A stretch of 43,522 nucleotides of DNA, taken from the NCBI GenBank assembly GCA_002773845.1, contig PEZZ01000017.1:6816-50337 (forward strand), given 5' to 3'. The translations under genes were made by a program, and so were the position numbers. Origin of the DNA: Candidatus Buchananbacteria bacterium CG10_big_fil_rev_8_21_14_0_10_42_9 (GTDB lineage: Bacteria; Patescibacteriota; Patescibacteriia; Buchananbacterales; 21-14-0-10-42-9). Under the pieces are notes generated by a model that was not told the DNA's origin, ran no database searches, and worked only from the letters and a program-made list of their open reading frames with translations. Below are positions 23,097 through 33,018 of this stretch, piece after piece (position 1 is the stretch's first letter; each line of letters begins with the position of its first letter).

Positions 23097-24431
23097 TTAT
23101 TTAGACGCTTTAACAATCTTGATTAATTTTTTGATGTGTTTTTTCCACTCTCTCTTATTTGGAGCTTCAACTGTAACCCGAACCAACGGCTCAGTGCCTG
23201 ACGGGCGGACATTAAACCACCAATTTTGATAATTCACAGTTAACCCGTCTAGTTCATCTTGTTCGCCGTCGCTATATTCTTGTTTCAACTTTTCAATTAG
23301 ACTTTGAGCATCTTTAATTTCAAAATTAGTTTCCGGCTCTTTGTAATATCTTTCATATTCAGCTCGGAGCTTAGATAGCGGTTTATCACTTTGAGATAAG
23401 ATTTGTAAAAATAATAGCATAGAAATAAATCCGCCATCGCCATAAAAATTATCCTTAAAAGCGTAGTGAGCAGATAATTCTCCGGAGGCAATGGCGTCAT
23501 GTTCCAACATTGCTTGCTGCAAATTAATGTAACCGACTTTGCTACGGAACGCCTTGCCGCCAAATTTTTCTATGCACTCTGGCACTGAACGTGAACAGAC
23601 CGCGTTATACACAATTCCGGCGCCGGGTTGCTCTTGCAGCAACGCTTTAGCCATTAAAATAAACGATATATCGCCTTGCATAAAACCGCCCTTTTCATCA
23701 ATAAAAAAAGTTCTGTCTGAATCACCATCAAACATCACGCCGCAGGCAGCTTTTTCTTGACGCACTATTTTACTCGCTTTTTTATAAGCACCTGGAGCAT
23801 ACGGGTTGGACGGGCGGTTTGGAAAATTGCCATCCAGTTCATAATCCACTTCAACAAATTCAAACGGCAAATGTTTAGCCAACATTGGCATAACTTTTCC
23901 CGCCGTGCCGTTGCCGGCATCCACCACTACTTTTAAGGGTTTTAATTTGCTAATATCTACAAAACTTAATATGTGTTTGATGTATTCATCGTAATAATTA
24001 ACTGAATTTAATTTACCGCGTTTAGGTTTTTTTTCTAGTACGCCTTTCATAAACGGCAGGTAATCTTTGCCATAAATCGCTTTATTGCCTTGCCTGACTG
24101 ACTTGATACCGTTGTATTCTTTAGGGTTATGCGAAGCGGTAATAATTGTGACCGCGTCATATTGTTTGGTACCAGCGACAAAGTAAATAAAATCAGTTGG
24201 AATCAAACCTAAATCATCCACGTCACAGCCCATGTCTAAAATACCGTTGATGTATGCTTCTTTCAATTGCGGCGTGGAAACGCGCATATCACCGCCGACC
24301 GCAATTTTTTTGCCTTTAACCATCCGGACAATTCCTTGCCCAGCGGTGTAGGCAATTTGTTCAGTTAATTGGTCGGGGTAGACGCCCCGAATGTCATAAG
24401 AGCGAAAGATTGAGGTATCAATATTTTTCAT
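23097..24431 (-). CDS. manB: Phosphomannomutase/phosphoglucomutase
   Basis: 444 aa alpha-D-phosphohexomutase. The four domains carry FRSYDIRGVYPDQL, the phosphoserine loop TIITASHNPKEYNG, the metal-binding MFDGDSDRTFF and the phosphate-binding RPSGTEPLVRV. It interconverts hexose 6- and 1-phosphates for surface glycans and sugar nucleotides. Its ATG directly follows the TAA of the upstream gene (TAAATG), so it is tightly coupled with the bactofilin-like gene and murI: an envelope-building operon. The mannose/glucose preference is not resolvable by eye. Confidence 0.92.
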   Translation of the reverse strand: MKNIDTSIFRSYDIRGVYPDQLTEQIAYTAGQGIVRMVKGKKIAVGGDMRVSTPQLKEAYINGILDMGCDVDDLGLIPTDFIYFVAGTKQYDAVTIITASHNPKEYNGIKSVRQGNKAIYGKDYLPFMKGVLEKKPKRGKLNSVNYYDEYIKHILSFVDISKLKPLKVVVDAGNGTAGKVMPMLAKHLPFEFVEVDYELDGNFPNRPSNPYAPGAYKKASKIVRQEKAACGVMFDGDSDRTFFIDEKGGFMQGDISFILMAKALLQEQPGAGIVYNAVCSRSVPECIEKFGGKAFRSKVGYINLQQAMLEHDAIASGELSAHYAFKDNFYGDGGFISMLLFLQILSQSDKPLSKLRAEYERYYKEPETNFEIKDAQSLIEKLKQEYSDGEQDELDGLTVNYQNWWFNVRPSGTEPLVRVTVEAPNKREWKKHIKKLIKIVKASK

Positions 24432-25604
24432 TTATCGGTATTGCTCCAAAACTACGCGCTTAAAGGCCATCACGCCGCCCAAAGCCCACAAAATCAAAGC
24501 TATTTTTATCAATCCACCAATCAAGGGCAAGAAAGTTAGAACAATAAAAATTATCATGCCAATAATCATTGGCAAAATGAGCCCACCCGAAGGCTTATTT
24601 TTCTTAACCACTGATTGCATGAAAAGCAAACCCAAACTAATGCCAGCGAAAACCTTACTGAACCATAAAGCAATGACGTAAATCGGAATCAAAATCAATG
24701 CTAAGGGAATGCCAATAACGGTTAAAGCTAAAAGTATAATCACAAATGGTGTTACAATCGCGTAAACTAAACCCCAACCAACTTTAGTTAATGGCTTTTC
24801 TATCATGGCTTGATGAATTTGGGTCACTGCCTTTGGCGCTAAGGCCACAAAAACCAAACCAACTAAAATCAAGCTAAATAATGATATGAGTTTTAGGAAA
24901 AAGTAGCCCGCGGCAAGTTTGCGCGGATTAACCGGTATATCCTTTTTGTGTTTCGGCAATTGATAGGAAACTTCTCCGGCAATACTTCCGCCTTCCCGCA
25001 CTAACAGCTGATCTTCTTTATTGCTGTAATAGGTTACATTACCATTAATTTCACCTTCGGGATTGACAATCATTTGACCTTGGTCGTCTAGACCAACTTT
25101 AACATCTTTTTCAATAACGCTTGCCACCACTAAATTTCCGACTCCGGCCGCCACGTTACCGCCAACTGGTCCGCGGATGTCTAAACTGCCAGCCCCGGCA
25201 TATACATCCCAACCAACCGATGCGTCTTTGGCGATCGTAACTGAACCGCCGGCCGCGTTTACATTATGCGCTACATTGCCGCCAACTTCCACGGCGCTGC
25301 CGGCGACCCTGACACTGCCGCCAACATCACCGGTAATTTTTACAGTCTGCCCGGCCGCAAACACATCGCCTTCCACATCGCCGGTAACTAAAACAAAAGC
25401 CCCGGCCGCAAACACATCGCCGACTATCGTGCCATGAATTTCAATTGAATTTCCAGTGGCAATTAAATTACCGTCAACTATATCTTCTTCGCCAACATAC
25501 ACGCTTGGCCCAGTTTCAAAATTAAAGGCCAAGGCGGCTAAAGGAACAACTAAAAATGAAATTGCCGCGAGACTTAAAAAAATTTTGCGGTTGAAAAAAT
25601 GCAT
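24432..25604 (-). CDS. Bactofilin-like beta-helix protein with C-terminal membrane domain
   Basis: 390 aa. It has an N-terminal signal peptide or transmembrane helix (residues 8-27). Residues about 35-190 are short repeats with a V.G.V...AG..V.I.GDV.G periodicity (GDVFAAGAFVLVTGDVEGDV), typical of a right-handed beta-helix of the polymer-forming cytoskeletal (bactofilin-like) kind. About five hydrophobic helices follow from residue 235. Because of the signal sequence the helix is probably outside the cell or membrane-facing. It heads the operon with phosphomannomutase and murI, so a role in the envelope is likely. Gly/Ala/Val-rich composition. Confidence 0.75.
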   Translation of the reverse strand: MHFFNRKIFLSLAAISFLVVPLAALAFNFETGPSVYVGEEDIVDGNLIATGNSIEIHGTIVGDVFAAGAFVLVTGDVEGDVFAAGQTVKITGDVGGSVRVAGSAVEVGGNVAHNVNAAGGSVTIAKDASVGWDVYAGAGSLDIRGPVGGNVAAGVGNLVVASVIEKDVKVGLDDQGQMIVNPEGEINGNVTYYSNKEDQLLVREGGSIAGEVSYQLPKHKKDIPVNPRKLAAGYFFLKLISLFSLILVGLVFVALAPKAVTQIHQAMIEKPLTKVGWGLVYAIVTPFVIILLALTVIGIPLALILIPIYVIALWFSKVFAGISLGLLFMQSVVKKNKPSGGLILPMIIGMIIFIVLTFLPLIGGLIKIALILWALGGVMAFKRVVLEQYR

Positions 25605-25637: not shown

Positions 25638-26345
25638 TCACTTTTTGGCCACGGTGACAATGTTCCAGCCCTGCCAGACACCAACTTTTTGCCCTTTTCT
25701 AACATAGTAATTTTGCACTACCGTAAAGCCAGCTAAATGCAATAATCGTTTCACCGATGACTTGCTAAAACCGTAGTAGTATCTATTCACTACATCGCCG
25801 TGCGCTGAAAAAGGCACCCAAACCCCGCGCCAATCAAGCTCACTTTGCCCAAGTAGCTTTTTGAGCAAAGAAGCAAAATACAACCGTCGATACTTACCTT
25901 GACGTAAATTCCAATTTGTCATTATAATGTAACCCCCGCCTGATAAATGATGATATGCATTTTGGATCACTTTTAAGCGCAGTTCAGGCGACGGTATGTG
26001 ATGCAACGAGGCAATCAAAAAAATCACATCATATTTTTTCGGAAGTGAAAAATTTGTTATATCGCCGACTATGAACTTAGCTTTGGGGTAGCGCTTTTTC
26101 GCCGCTTGGATAATTGGTTCGCTAATATCAAGCCCGGTGTAATTCACCTTCGTATCGGTTAAAGCATCTAGTAAGCGCCCGTTGCCGCATCCCAAATCTA
26201 AAATCTTTGCGCCAGTCGGCACAAATTCAATAAAATCACTAAATTCTGGCCAAGCGAACCGGCGTGAATCATTAAAAAAATCACTTACCTGCTCGTAAGC
26301 TAACTTATTTTGCTGTAAAATATTTTTGACTACACTTTTTTTCAT
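25638..26345 (-). CDS. Trm9/ALKBH8-like tRNA wobble-uridine methyltransferase
   Basis: 235 aa class I SAM methyltransferase. Motif I is KILDLGCGNGRLL (47-59). The features that point to Trm9/ALKBH8 are YEQVSDFFNDSRRFAWPEF (17-35), matching the family's YD.IA..FS.TR..PWP; IASLHHI (111-117); WVPF near 176-179, like the family's VPW; and NRYYYGFSKSSVKRL (187-201), like RYYH.F..GEL. Trm9 methylates cm5U34 to mcm5U34, the step after Elp3. Here the gene is divergent from elp3 with start codons overlapping in a CATG. No other start fits without losing the conserved N-terminus. Assigned from motif memory; a different small-molecule methyltransferase cannot be excluded. Confidence 0.7.
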   Translation of the reverse strand: MKKSVVKNILQQNKLAYEQVSDFFNDSRRFAWPEFSDFIEFVPTGAKILDLGCGNGRLLDALTDTKVNYTGLDISEPIIQAAKKRYPKAKFIVGDITNFSLPKKYDVIFLIASLHHIPSPELRLKVIQNAYHHLSGGGYIIMTNWNLRQGKYRRLYFASLLKKLLGQSELDWRGVWVPFSAHGDVVNRYYYGFSKSSVKRLLHLAGFTVVQNYYVRKGQKVGVWQGWNIVTVAKK

Positions 26346-27966
26346 GAACCAAGCTCAATTAAAAAATATCATAACCAATTTGTCTAAAACCCGAATTAAA
26401 AATCGGGAGAATTTTAATACCTTAGTTAAACGTTACGCCGGTAGCTACCAAGAACCCTCGCCACTTAATTCTGAACTTTTACAAGCTTATCGTCAACTGG
26501 TCAAGTCAAAAAAAATTAAACCAAGCAAAGGCTTAGAAAAGCACTTACAGAAACGCTCGGTGCGAAGCATGTCCGGAGTAGCCGTAATTACCTGCCTCAC
26601 TAAACCAATGGGCTGTCCGCACACGTGCGTGTTTTGCCCGACCGAAGACCGCATGCCCAAAAGTTATTTATCTAATGAGCCGGCGGTGATGCGCGCGCTG
26701 ATGAATCAATGGGATCCATACCGCCAAGTTAAAACTCGACTGAAAGCGCTTAGTCGGCACGGCCACGCGACTGACAAAATCGAACTGATTGTGATTGGGG
26801 GCACCTGGTCGGCACATCCCAAACGTTATCAAGCATGGTACGTCAAAAGATTGCTGGACGCATTAAATGGTAAAACTAGCACAACCTTACTACAAGCCCA
26901 AAAGTTAAATGAAAAAGCTTCGCACCGCTGCGTCGGGCTGACGTTGGAAACCCGGCCGGATTGGATTGATGAAGCTGAAATTAAACAGCTACGTAAACTC
27001 GGTTGCACGCGAGTAGAAATTGGCATTCAAAATCCACGCGATGACATTTTAAAATTATCTCGCCGTGGCCACGGTGTGAAAGAAATTGTTCAAGCCACAA
27101 AACTATTAAAAGAAGCTGGGTTTAAAATTTGTTACCATACTATGCCGCAACTGCCCGGAAGCACCCCCGCGATTGATTTGCAAATGTACAAAGATTTGTA
27201 CGGCAAAGAAAAATTTCAACCAGATTTGGTAAAAATTTATCCAACCGCGGTAGTTAAAACTGCAGAACTATATGACTGGATGAAGCGCGGAGACTACACG
27301 CCTTATTCCGACGCTAAGTTAAAAACAGTGTTGAAAAAAGCGAAGTTACTTACTCCTGAATATGTCAGAATTGTGAGATTAATTCGCGACATCCCGGCTG
27401 AATCAATTGAAGGCGGAAACAAAATAACCAACTTAAGACAATTGATTAGCTATGAATTGAAAAAAGAAAGCAAGGCATGCCAATGCATCCGTTGTCGGGA
27501 AGTCGGGCATCAATCAGAAAATAAAAAATCGCTTGGGCAACCCATTAAACTAAGAGTTAAAAAGTACCGGGCGTCAGGCGGTACTGAATACTTTATCAGC
27601 TTCGCAAGCCAAGACAACGCTATATTGTACGCCTACGTCAGGCTACGAATTAACGACGAATCCAAAGACCACCATCTGCAAGAATTACGCAACGCGGCGC
27701 TGATTAGAGAAATTCACACTTACGGCCCGCACGTAAAATTGGGCGAGTCAGGCATGATCCAGCACACTGGCCTTGGCAAAAAATTAATGGCCGAAGCTGA
27801 ATACATCGCTGGACAAGAAAATCGTAAGCGTATTAAGGCTAAAAAATCTTCTATTGCAAAAGTGGCTGTGATTGCCGCTGCCGGAGTGCGCGAATATTAC
27901 CGCAAGCTAGGGTACCGCCTGGACGGCACGTATATGAGCAAGAGGCTATTAGCAACTGGCAAGTAG
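26344..27966 (+). CDS. elp3: Elp3: tRNA uridine-34 carboxymethyl-type radical SAM/acetyltransferase
   Basis: 540 aa. The radical SAM domain has MGCPHTCVFCPTEDRMPKSY (Cys 91, 95, 98 with an extra Cys 84), YRQVKTRLKALSRHGHATDK, GGTWSAHP, GLTLETRPDWID and VEIGIQN. The C-terminal GNAT domain has HTYGPHVKLGE, QHTGLGKKLMAEAEYIA and GVREYYRKLGYRLDGTYMSK. Elp3 builds the cm5 group on wobble uridine using SAM and acetyl-CoA. The ATG at 26344 shares two bases with the divergent methyltransferase's ATG. A TACACT -10-like box 7 nt upstream suggests a leaderless mRNA. Bacterial Elp3 acts without the other Elongator subunits. Confidence 0.93.
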   Translation: MNQAQLKNIITNLSKTRIKNRENFNTLVKRYAGSYQEPSPLNSELLQAYRQLVKSKKIKPSKGLEKHLQKRSVRSMSGVAVITCLTKPMGCPHTCVFCPTEDRMPKSYLSNEPAVMRALMNQWDPYRQVKTRLKALSRHGHATDKIELIVIGGTWSAHPKRYQAWYVKRLLDALNGKTSTTLLQAQKLNEKASHRCVGLTLETRPDWIDEAEIKQLRKLGCTRVEIGIQNPRDDILKLSRRGHGVKEIVQATKLLKEAGFKICYHTMPQLPGSTPAIDLQMYKDLYGKEKFQPDLVKIYPTAVVKTAELYDWMKRGDYTPYSDAKLKTVLKKAKLLTPEYVRIVRLIRDIPAESIEGGNKITNLRQLISYELKKESKACQCIRCREVGHQSENKKSLGQPIKLRVKKYRASGGTEYFISFASQDNAILYAYVRLRINDESKDHHLQELRNAALIREIHTYGPHVKLGESGMIQHTGLGKKLMAEAEYIAGQENRKRIKAKKSSIAKVAVIAAAGVREYYRKLGYRLDGTYMSKRLLATGK

Positions 27967-27969
27967 CAT

Positions 27970-28069
27970 GTCCCCTCTTATTTTAAGAGGGGACAGAACC
28001 TGCGCTAAAGCGAAACACAGTGCAGGACAGTTCTGTACCGAGCTCCGCTCTGGTACAGGGGGAGTTACT
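27970..28069. repeat. Family B hairpin interrupted by other palindromes
   Basis: GTCCCCTCTTATTTTAAGAG followed by GGGAC (27970-27994). Then comes an inserted hairpin set: AGAACCTGC...GCAGGACAGTTCT and TGTACC...GGTACA. Then comes GGGGGAGTTACT, which in family B normally follows the hairpin directly. This looks like a family B element split by an insertion of about 65 bp. Confidence 0.65.
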
Positions 28070-28073
28070 AAAT

Positions 28074-28172
28074 GTCATCTTGAGCGAAGCGTTAGCGGAG
28101 CCGAAAGATCTCACACATATATAACCCTACGTATGAGATTTCTCCACTCGCCTATGGCTCGGTCGAAATGAC
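28074..28172. repeat. Family C element nested in family B remnants
   Basis: GTCATCTTGAGCGAAGCG...AAAGATCTCAC...TGAGATTTCTCC...GGTCGAAATGAC. It sits between GGGGGAGTTACTAAAT and AATTAAACAACTCCCC, inverted arms of family B type, so it appears to have inserted between them. Confidence 0.75.
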
Positions 28173-28190
28173 AAATTAAACAACTCCCCT

Positions 28191-31400: not shown

Positions 31401-31871
31401 ATGCAACTGGATAAGCAAAATAATGAAATAAAGAAACTGCAACGTAAAATCAGGCTTTTATTTATTTTAATGCCGGTTCTTTTTATTATTAGTTTTGCCT
31501 TATATGGTTACGGCGCGGTACAGGGCAACTACAATAAACAGACGGGCGACCAACTAACCGCTGCCGACTGGAACACATTGACTACAGATTTTGAGATTTC
31601 TTGGCAGGATGTTAATTTAACTGACAATGCGTCCTTTGACGTTAATTGCGAATATCGCATGAGTATATCCGGTGACACCTCACGTGCGTATGCTCATGTG
31701 GTGTCACCTTCCGGACTTATTTTTGAAACTTCATCGGCCTCCTTTAGGCTAGCTAGCATCCCCGCAAACGAAAAAGGATTTTTAGATATCGTTGAAGACG
31801 GAAATACAGCTAATATTATCCTCAACAACCCCTTTGCTGTTTCCAGCATCCAAAAACTTTGCCCTACATAG
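31401..31871 (+). CDS. Membrane-anchored exported protein, unknown
   Basis: 156 aa. A basic start (MQLDKQNNEIKKLQRKIR) precedes one transmembrane helix (about residues 20-40), then an exported region with QTGDQLTAADWNTLTTDF, reminiscent of pilin-like or tail-fibre-like surface proteins, and a beta-rich tail with a Cys pair (VNCEYRMS, QKLCPT). The family is unknown. The ATG at 31401 is 6 bp after a TATAAT box. It converges with the Trm11-like gene, overlapping it by 8 bp at the 3' ends. Confidence 0.7.
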   Translation: MQLDKQNNEIKKLQRKIRLLFILMPVLFIISFALYGYGAVQGNYNKQTGDQLTAADWNTLTTDFEISWQDVNLTDNASFDVNCEYRMSISGDTSRAYAHVVSPSGLIFETSSASFRLASIPANEKGFLDIVEDGNTANIILNNPFAVSSIQKLCPT

Positions 31872-33018
31872 TAAAGACGTTAATTTCCCTTACCACTTTT
31901 TGATCAACGCGGCTATAAACTAGCGGCGTTTTGTTTTGTTTAACCCATCCGTCGCCTTGAAGGGTTGGCATGATATTCATTTTTACCTCGCGATTTTTAT
32001 GCTTGAAAATTGGAAATATAATTACAACCCGACCCCCTTTTTTTAAAACTTTTTTAAATTCATCAAAGGCGTTCAAATAAAGCTGCTCCAGCTCGGCCAT
32101 TTCTTTACTTAAGCTATCCGTAGATTCGTTACCTTTTTTTGGTTTACCTAAATAAGGCTCAGAAATTATAGCGTCAACTGAATTTTTGTTAACAAAGGTA
32201 GAAATAGCTTCAGCCGGGGAATTAAAAAGCTTGAGGCTGGCTTTAATTTTGTATTTATCTTTTAGCCAAGCTAAATTGTTTTCCGTATCTTTAATTGCTT
32301 TTTCAGAGATATCGCTACCAACTACATTTTGATAGCCCATTAAAATTGCCTCTTGTAACATAGTCCCCGATCCGCAAAAAGGATCTAAGATGTTGGCATT
32401 TAGGGCGGTTTGAGACAGGTTAATCATAATTTTAGCTAGTTTCGGCGGCATTGAGCCAGAAAGCATATCTCGTTTCGGCCGGCCATAATCACGCTCGCTA
32501 AACGCTTTAAAATCTTGCACTGCGATAGTGCGGCCCCAATACCCGATGGGTTCTCCCCCTTTTGAAGGGGGAGATAAAGAGGGGGTTGATACTACTATAA
32601 TTTCAGAACCATTGGCGAGCAATTTATTTTTCTCAACTATAACTGACGACAATTGTTTTTCCTTTGACGTTACCAGCCGAGAACTAACACCTTTTTCTTT
32701 TAGTTGTTTTTTTATAGCCAGGCCAATTTTTTTATCTTCTGTGCCATACCAGCTAAAGCCAAAAAATATTTTCTTAGATTTATCAGCATTGTTCAAAATC
32801 ATCTGCTCAATATTTTCCGCACTAAATTCTTGATCCGAAGCTTGGGCAATTTTTATTGTACCGCCCAATCGTTCAATCGCCTGCCTAGGGCTAATTTCCC
32901 CCTCCACGATTAATACCGGGGGTTCAAATGACAACTTTTTAAGCCTTGGCCAAACTGCAAACACTTCCGCTTTACAAAGTTCATGATTTCGACCTAGTAT
33001 AAAGATATATTTCGCCAT
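31864..33018 (-). CDS. Trm11/Trm-G10-like tRNA guanine-N2 methyltransferase, with in-frame repeat insertion
   Basis: 384 aa. The N-terminal half is a THUMP-like RNA-binding region. The catalytic domain starts near residue 160 with YWGRTIAVQDFKAFSERDYG and MPPKLAKIMINL, then motif I LDPFCGSGTMLQEA and a motif IV variant SEPYLGK (usually DPPYG in Trm11). It likely methylates N2 of a tRNA guanosine such as G10. Residues 144-157 (STPSLSPPSKGGEP) are encoded by a family B palindrome (32551-32590) placed exactly in frame between the domains. The ATG at 33018 is 6 bp after a TATAAT box. Confidence 0.85.
   Translation of the reverse strand: MAKYIFILGRNHELCKAEVFAVWPRLKKLSFEPPVLIVEGEISPRQAIERLGGTIKIAQASDQEFSAENIEQMILNNADKSKKIFFGFSWYGTEDKKIGLAIKKQLKEKGVSSRLVTSKEKQLSSVIVEKNKLLANGSEIIVVSTPSLSPPSKGGEPIGYWGRTIAVQDFKAFSERDYGRPKRDMLSGSMPPKLAKIMINLSQTALNANILDPFCGSGTMLQEAILMGYQNVVGSDISEKAIKDTENNLAWLKDKYKIKASLKLFNSPAEAISTFVNKNSVDAIISEPYLGKPKKGNESTDSLSKEMAELEQLYLNAFDEFKKVLKKGGRVVIIFPIFKHKNREVKMNIMPTLQGDGWVKQNKTPLVYSRVDQKVVREINVFTM
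32551..32590. repeat. Family B palindrome inside a coding gene
   Basis: TTCTCCCCCTTTTGAAGGGG, then GAGATAAAGAGGGGGTTGAT. It matches the intergenic arm at 1031-1064 in order and spacing: hairpin, GAG, short link, GAGGGGGTT. It encodes Ser/Pro/Gly-rich linker residues of the Trm11-like protein without breaking the frame. Confidence 0.75.

Follow-up and report, generated by a model that had tools for sequence, protein, structure and literature searches.

An Elp3 and a Trm9-like methyltransferase encoded by divergent genes in a patescibacterium: a predicted two-enzyme pathway for wobble-uridine modification

The stretch of DNA analysed here (the 'window') comprises 43,522 nucleotides of a Candidatus Buchananbacteria contig (PEZZ01000017.1, positions 6816-50337; our contig C17), taken from a genome of 1.09 Mb that is 96% complete, and contains two divergent genes which meet at their start codons. 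On the plus strand, elp3 (26344..27966) encodes a 540-residue Elp3 protein with radical SAM and KAT (GNAT) domains, predicted from its match to TIGR01211 and its catalytic residues to form the cm5 group on tRNA U34. On the minus strand, a gene at 25638..26345 encodes a SAM-dependent methyltransferase of 235 residues, which we describe as Trm9-like and predict, on the basis of a family profile, substrate residues, a tree and a structural model, to methylate the carboxyl group of cm5U34. On the reverse complement, 26343-26345 form the ATG of the methyltransferase gene, and the ATG of elp3 occupies 26344-26346; two bases are thus common to both, and the divergent start codons overlap in CATG (26343..26346), as a reading of the sequence alone had proposed. 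Both starts agree with those of homologues (MNQAQLKN... compared with MNNNPLQN... and MQEAIQQI... for Elp3; MKKSVVKN... compared with MKEDVAKK... and MEKEIASQ... for the methyltransferase). A start of elp3 at a more upstream TTG (26326) is possible and was set aside for lack of support from homologues. Of 19 related pairs, 6, belonging to five families, share the identical two-base overlap, which is seen at loci L003, L009, L011, L020 and L022. Because it recurs in this manner, and because the pair is present in 42 of the 68 Elp3-encoding genomes of the phylum sample described below and is divergent in all of them, the overlap cannot be regarded as chance. The arrangement also implies that the promoters must sit inside the respective opposite gene, a placement that has not been demonstrated; a promoter scan around the start overlap yielded nothing above shuffled sequences.

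Downstream of the methyltransferase gene follow, likewise on the minus strand, genes for a bactofilin-like membrane protein (24432..25604; PF04519, 3.5e-7) and for a phosphomannomutase/phosphoglucomutase-like protein (23097..24431; NF007088, 1.6e-114). As judged by eye, an ORF of similar make-up to the bactofilin-like gene trails the methyltransferase gene in L002, and a similar mutase-like gene lies 3' of it in L002 and L003, being syntenic in Kerfeldbacteria; the bactofilin-like neighbour is probably not part of the pathway discussed below. At the other end, a perfect 12-nt inverted repeat (TGTCCCCTCTTA; 27969-27995), possibly a terminator-like or repeat element, directly follows the stop codon of elp3. 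The intergenic stretch 28075-28180, also 3' of elp3, recurs, in nearly whole or partial copies, four more times in the genome, including two copies elsewhere in the window.

By its sequence, the product of elp3 is a bona fide Elp3, for which formation of cm5U34 from acetyl-CoA is inferred. It scores 547.7 bits against the whole-length profile TIGR01211 (curated cut-off 350), and its nearest solved structures are those of MinElp3 from Methanocaldococcus infernus (6e-128) and DmcElp3 from Dehalococcoides (3e-115). The radical-SAM cluster motif CPHTCVFC (CX3CX2C) is located at residues 91-98, and K145, K261, E456, H458 and Y518 correspond to K77, K193, E386, H388 and Y441 of DmcElp3, that is, to acetyl-CoA pocket/KAT residues as compiled in PMC6367351. 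Dehalococcoides mccartyi DmcElp3 is likewise bacterial and has the same catalytic residues; unlike it, however, the window Elp3 possesses a basic N-terminal extension (15 Lys and Arg, 4 Asp and Glu among the first 70 residues), a feature known from archaeal and eukaryotic Elp3 and absent in DmcElp3 (PMC6367351).

For the methyltransferase, Pfam and NCBIfam return generic methyltransferase matches only, and all NCBIfam equivalogs score far below their cut-offs (best match 43.7 bits versus 155; UbiG 42.7 versus 102.95). When the single sequence was searched against the PDB, Trm9 came third, behind two other methyltransferases. This is resolved by a family profile (A2) built from 19 of the methyltransferases, which ranks Trm9 from Yarrowia first among all PDB chains (5cm2_Z; 1e-29, 106 bits) with an alignment that spans positions 25-221 and includes RYYH, the runner-up attaining 83 bits over positions 38-186. 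With Yarrowia Trm9 as the query, the window methyltransferase is the best match in its genome (4e-11; next 4e-6) and hence a reciprocal best match, and the strongest matches in the phylum are nearly all elp3-linked methyltransferases. The Trm9/ALKBH8-type motifs to which the sequence-only reading had pointed are real (SRRFAW, LDLGCGNG, SLHH, MTNWN, RYYYGF and a C-terminal N). In yeast Trm9, the substitutions R29A, H115A, R241A, Y243A and N271A entail a loss of both tRNA affinity and kcat (PMC5372719). All five of these residues are matched in the window methyltransferase (yeast numbering). Across the family, R29, H116, W146 and R241 are invariant in 44 of 44 members and N271 is kept in 43, with Y243 being variable; the substrate-residue pattern is not shared by seven paralogues. 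The yeast sequence in this alignment shows the right residues wherever a mutant has been published, and it is in agreement with the Yarrowia sequence derived from the PDB.

In a maximum-likelihood tree, Trm9 (yeast Trm9 included) falls within the group of elp3-linked methyltransferases, and ten other methyltransferases lie outside (branch 97/83), so that a grouping with UbiE or other small-molecule enzymes, which had been named as an outcome that would refute the assignment, is not observed. The tree contains only two Trm9 sequences besides the ten outgroup methyltransferases, the Trm9 stem is long (1.97), and no more than about 25-36% of the residues are identical to Trm9; the family itself is divergent, with 28-40% identity to the window protein. 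Comparison of a predicted structure with Trm9, which had likewise been proposed, provides support of a limited kind: the AlphaFold (AF2) model is confident (pLDDT 94.1), exhibits a class I SAM-methyltransferase fold with the lid and the C-terminal RYYH..N region, and matches 5cm2_Z in Foldseek (E 3.6e-15, TMt 0.74), but Trm9 is found only at rank 5 among many class I methyltransferases. The fold alone does not discriminate among them.

Conservation of the gene pair was assessed in a sample of 192 genomes evenly drawn from the phylum of the window, against which profile A2 was run. Elp3 is present in 68 of them, and in 42 of these, representing 28 families, the methyltransferase gene adjoins elp3, always in divergent orientation (42/42) and mostly at short distance (within 250 bp in 38, within 3.5 kb in the remaining 4); a 43rd case (G116, locus L044) is broken by a contig end. 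About one third of the Elp3 genomes lack a linked methyltransferase. A scan of GTDB species genomes with short exact peptide patterns, which yielded nothing beyond close relatives and a small number of generic methyltransferases, located the methyltransferase in two Kerfeldbacteria and in one Magasanikbacterium, all three of which have elp3 divergently adjacent to it, and 64 loci on viral contigs contained generic methyltransferases only and no elp3. Since the linkage spans 28 families, an ordinary chance placement of the methyltransferase gene can be excluded, and the absence of linkage in relatives that would have spoken against the sequence-only reading is not encountered.

Statements on the window genome as a whole rest on family searches. 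At 96% completeness, this genome yielded neither MnmG nor MnmE in searches that were positive for 9 of 14 controls, and the search for CmoB (TIGR00452) returned only a generic methyltransferase match of 34.9 bits (cut-off 275). MnmA, on the other hand, is present (1e-125), as are tRNAs Lys-UUU, Glu-UUC, Gln-UUG, Arg-UCU and Gly-UCC, i.e., the set of U34 tRNAs that carries mcm5(s2)U34 in yeast (PMC5372719). Of the 192 genomes of the phylum sample, 5 encode MnmG, 4 MnmE and 161 MnmA, and in none does MnmG or MnmE coexist with Elp3. Because genomes with MnmG are so few, mutual exclusion of MnmG and Elp3 (5 versus 68 genomes) is by itself not significant (p = 0.11) and may reflect chance alone. 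About 119 of the 192 genomes have neither MnmG nor Elp3, and U34 seems to be thiolated in most of the phylum in the absence of the canonical C5 pathway.

In yeast and humans, Elp3 and subsequently a Trm9-type enzyme act on the decoding base of tRNA. We suggest that the window pair constitutes a minimal two-enzyme pathway for the wobble uridine, leading to mcm5U34 and replacing MnmE/MnmG, a reading to which we assign a probability of about 0.86 and in which the products, the order of the reactions and activity without Trm112 are inferred. Elp3, without other Elongator subunits, would employ SAM and acetyl-CoA to generate cm5U at U34 by rSAM/KAT chemistry, the Trm9-like enzyme would use SAM to convert the carboxylate of cm5U34 into the ester mcm5U34, and MnmA would probably add the 2-thio group in Lys, Glu and Gln tRNAs, yielding mcm5s2U34. 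The Elp3 route would thereby stand in for the canonical MnmE/MnmG route to cmnm5U, which is missing from the window genome. Given that the usual U34 enzymes are lost in dozens of pair-bearing relatives, the route thought of as 'eukaryotic/archaeal' is probably the bacterial one here. The pathway, as first conjectured in the sequence-only reading, is well supported by comparison, that is, by phylogeny and linkage, in the absence of biochemical or nucleoside data: its chemistry is unshown, and there are no data on mcm5U.

Characterised Trm9/ALKBH8 enzymes need Trm112 (PMC5372719), and the methyltransferase might be a Trm9 homologue that depends on an unrecognised small partner such as a divergent Trm112-like zinc-knuckle protein, making three components in total. 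Trm112 domains, being short, can easily escape detection, and PF03966 matches above cut-off do occur in 6 of the 192 phylum genomes, two of which (G072 and G086) have the linked pair. Yet the same model, which does match in 9 of 14 control genomes, gives no hit in the window genome at a threshold as permissive as E 0.01, which extends to the whole genome the earlier remark that no Trm112 partner is seen, and no Trm112 above cut-off was found in 40 of the 42 genomes with the linked pair. Moreover, thermococcal Trm11 is active without Trm112 (PMC5372719), and Trm112-free variants of Trm112-dependent enzymes therefore exist, although we found no precedent in the literature consulted for Trm9 activity without Trm112. 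Hence, a hidden partner appears unlikely to us without being negligible, and, Trm112 not having been found, we classify the protein as a Trm9 homologue and not as a Trm9-Trm112 holoenzyme. In both G072 and G086, which also carry the linked Elp3-Trm9-like pair, a Trm112-domain match lies in one open frame with a methyltransferase domain (L068:1432-2508, 359 residues, and L071:1492-2751, 420 residues, respectively).

The methyltransferase could also act on a different U34 intermediate or at another tRNA position, its link with Elp3 then reflecting no more than a shared anticodon loop. Class I methyltransferases switch substrates easily and the family is divergent, as stated above; we nonetheless consider this improbable, the cm5U34-positioning residues known from yeast Trm9 being kept, the divergent linkage to the cm5U-making enzyme being one-to-one, and the obvious alternative, the cmo5U route, being without CmoB in the window genome. 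That an ordinary small-molecule methyltransferase of the UbiE/UbiG/BioC type adjoins elp3 by accident would be compatible with the merely generic Pfam/NCBIfam matches, but is largely refuted, and hardly credible, in view of the equivalog scores, the linkage in 28 families and a tree in which the family sides with Trm9 and not with the other methyltransferases available.

The proposed mcm5U34 pathway shares with its eukaryotic counterpart (Elongator, Elp1-6, together with Trm9-Trm112 or ALKBH8-TRMT112) (i) an Elp3 core with rSAM and KAT motifs, (ii) a Trm9-type methyltransferase with the same five substrate-binding residues, and (iii) the same predicted product. In contrast, the window pair is bacterial, consists of two genes with overlapping divergent starts, comes without a detectable Trm112 and is not expected to be accompanied by other Elongator subunits, and thiolation is predicted to depend on MnmA instead of Ncs6/Urm1. 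Archaeal Elp3 and Trm9 (Haloferax volcanii HVO_2888 and HVO_1032; PMC2584109, PMC5372719, PMC7663514) likewise feature a stand-alone Elp3, and the elp3-trm9 cluster of Sulfolobus resembles the window in that a Trm9 homologue is linked to elp3; the archaeal versions, however, usually co-occur with Trm112, and their thiolation is predicted to proceed via Tuc1, not MnmA. Grosjean et al. (PMC2584109) predicted archaeal mcm5s2U and noted the clustering in Sulfolobus, and mcm5U34 is documented in Haloferax volcanii according to work cited in PMC7663514. Bacterial MnmE-MnmG (cmnm5U34) acts on the same tRNAs, also at C5 of U34 and alongside thiolation by MnmA, but the enzymes are unrelated; the window genome lacks them, as does almost every genome of the phylum sample.

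So far, mcm5U34 has been viewed as eukaryotic and, recently, archaeal, and bacterial Elp3 as a curiosity of Dehalococcoides, the only Elp3-bearing bacterial clade named in a 2020 review (PMC7663514); a 2026 paper refers to 'numerous bacteria' with Elp3 (PMC13315578). In the literature consulted, we found nothing that links Elp3 with tRNA modification in Patescibacteria or CPR, and the pair therefore represents, so far as this literature shows, a new bacterial version of a known eukaryotic/archaeal pathway. A widespread linked Elp3-Trm9-like pair in the absence of MnmEG alters the picture of U34 modification in the phylum, and a two-protein system devoid of Elongator subunits and Trm112 would be handy for enzymology.

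Some Elp3 genomes that lack a linked Trm9-like gene have a stand-alone asparagine-synthetase domain (PF00733) encoded beside elp3 (L008:16-867, minus strand; L018:3201-4022, plus; L037:611-1405, minus; L212:2310-3110, plus; L017:3340-3780, plus). The corresponding profile (A3) yields strong matches in no more than five genomes. Each of these lies at the elp3 locus, next to elp3 in four cases and separated from it by a single gene in the fifth, and all five genomes lack a linked Trm9-like methyltransferase (p about 0.006). G073, which has the asparagine-synthetase-like gene, belongs to the same family as four genomes with the Trm9-like gene. The model of the asparagine-synthetase-like protein matches that domain of asparagine synthetase B which forms the amide. 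As the enzyme that converts cm5U to ncm5U has been described as 'not known in any organism' (PMC6412123, 2019; also PMC3110198), we regard this protein as a candidate for it, which may amidate cm5U34 to ncm5U34, an activity inferred from context and fold only. It is then tempting to speculate that, across the phylum, an Elp3 system replaced MnmEG and that the second gene sets the product, a Trm112-independent Trm9-like enzyme giving mcm5U34 and the asparagine-synthetase-like protein ncm5U34, a tentative generalization that we rate at somewhat less than even odds. If true, the asparagine-synthetase-like enzyme would be the missing ncm5U synthetase, for which the swap of partners already furnishes a testable candidate, and the pathway combined with MnmA would yield mcm5s2U34 by a hybrid bacterial/archaeal route.

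Elsewhere in the window, a methyltransferase gene on the minus strand (31864-33018) is related to TIGR01177 (93 bits; curated cut-off 316); its product is possibly archaeal Trm11/TrmG10-like and, as such, another archaeal-type tRNA methylation enzyme. In bacteria, a tRNA-Ile with anticodon UAU is unusual, AUA being mostly read by CAU with lysidine; the window genome encodes such a tRNA-Ile (UAU) on contig C27, where L079:1161-1236 and L086:1501-1576 are the same gene.
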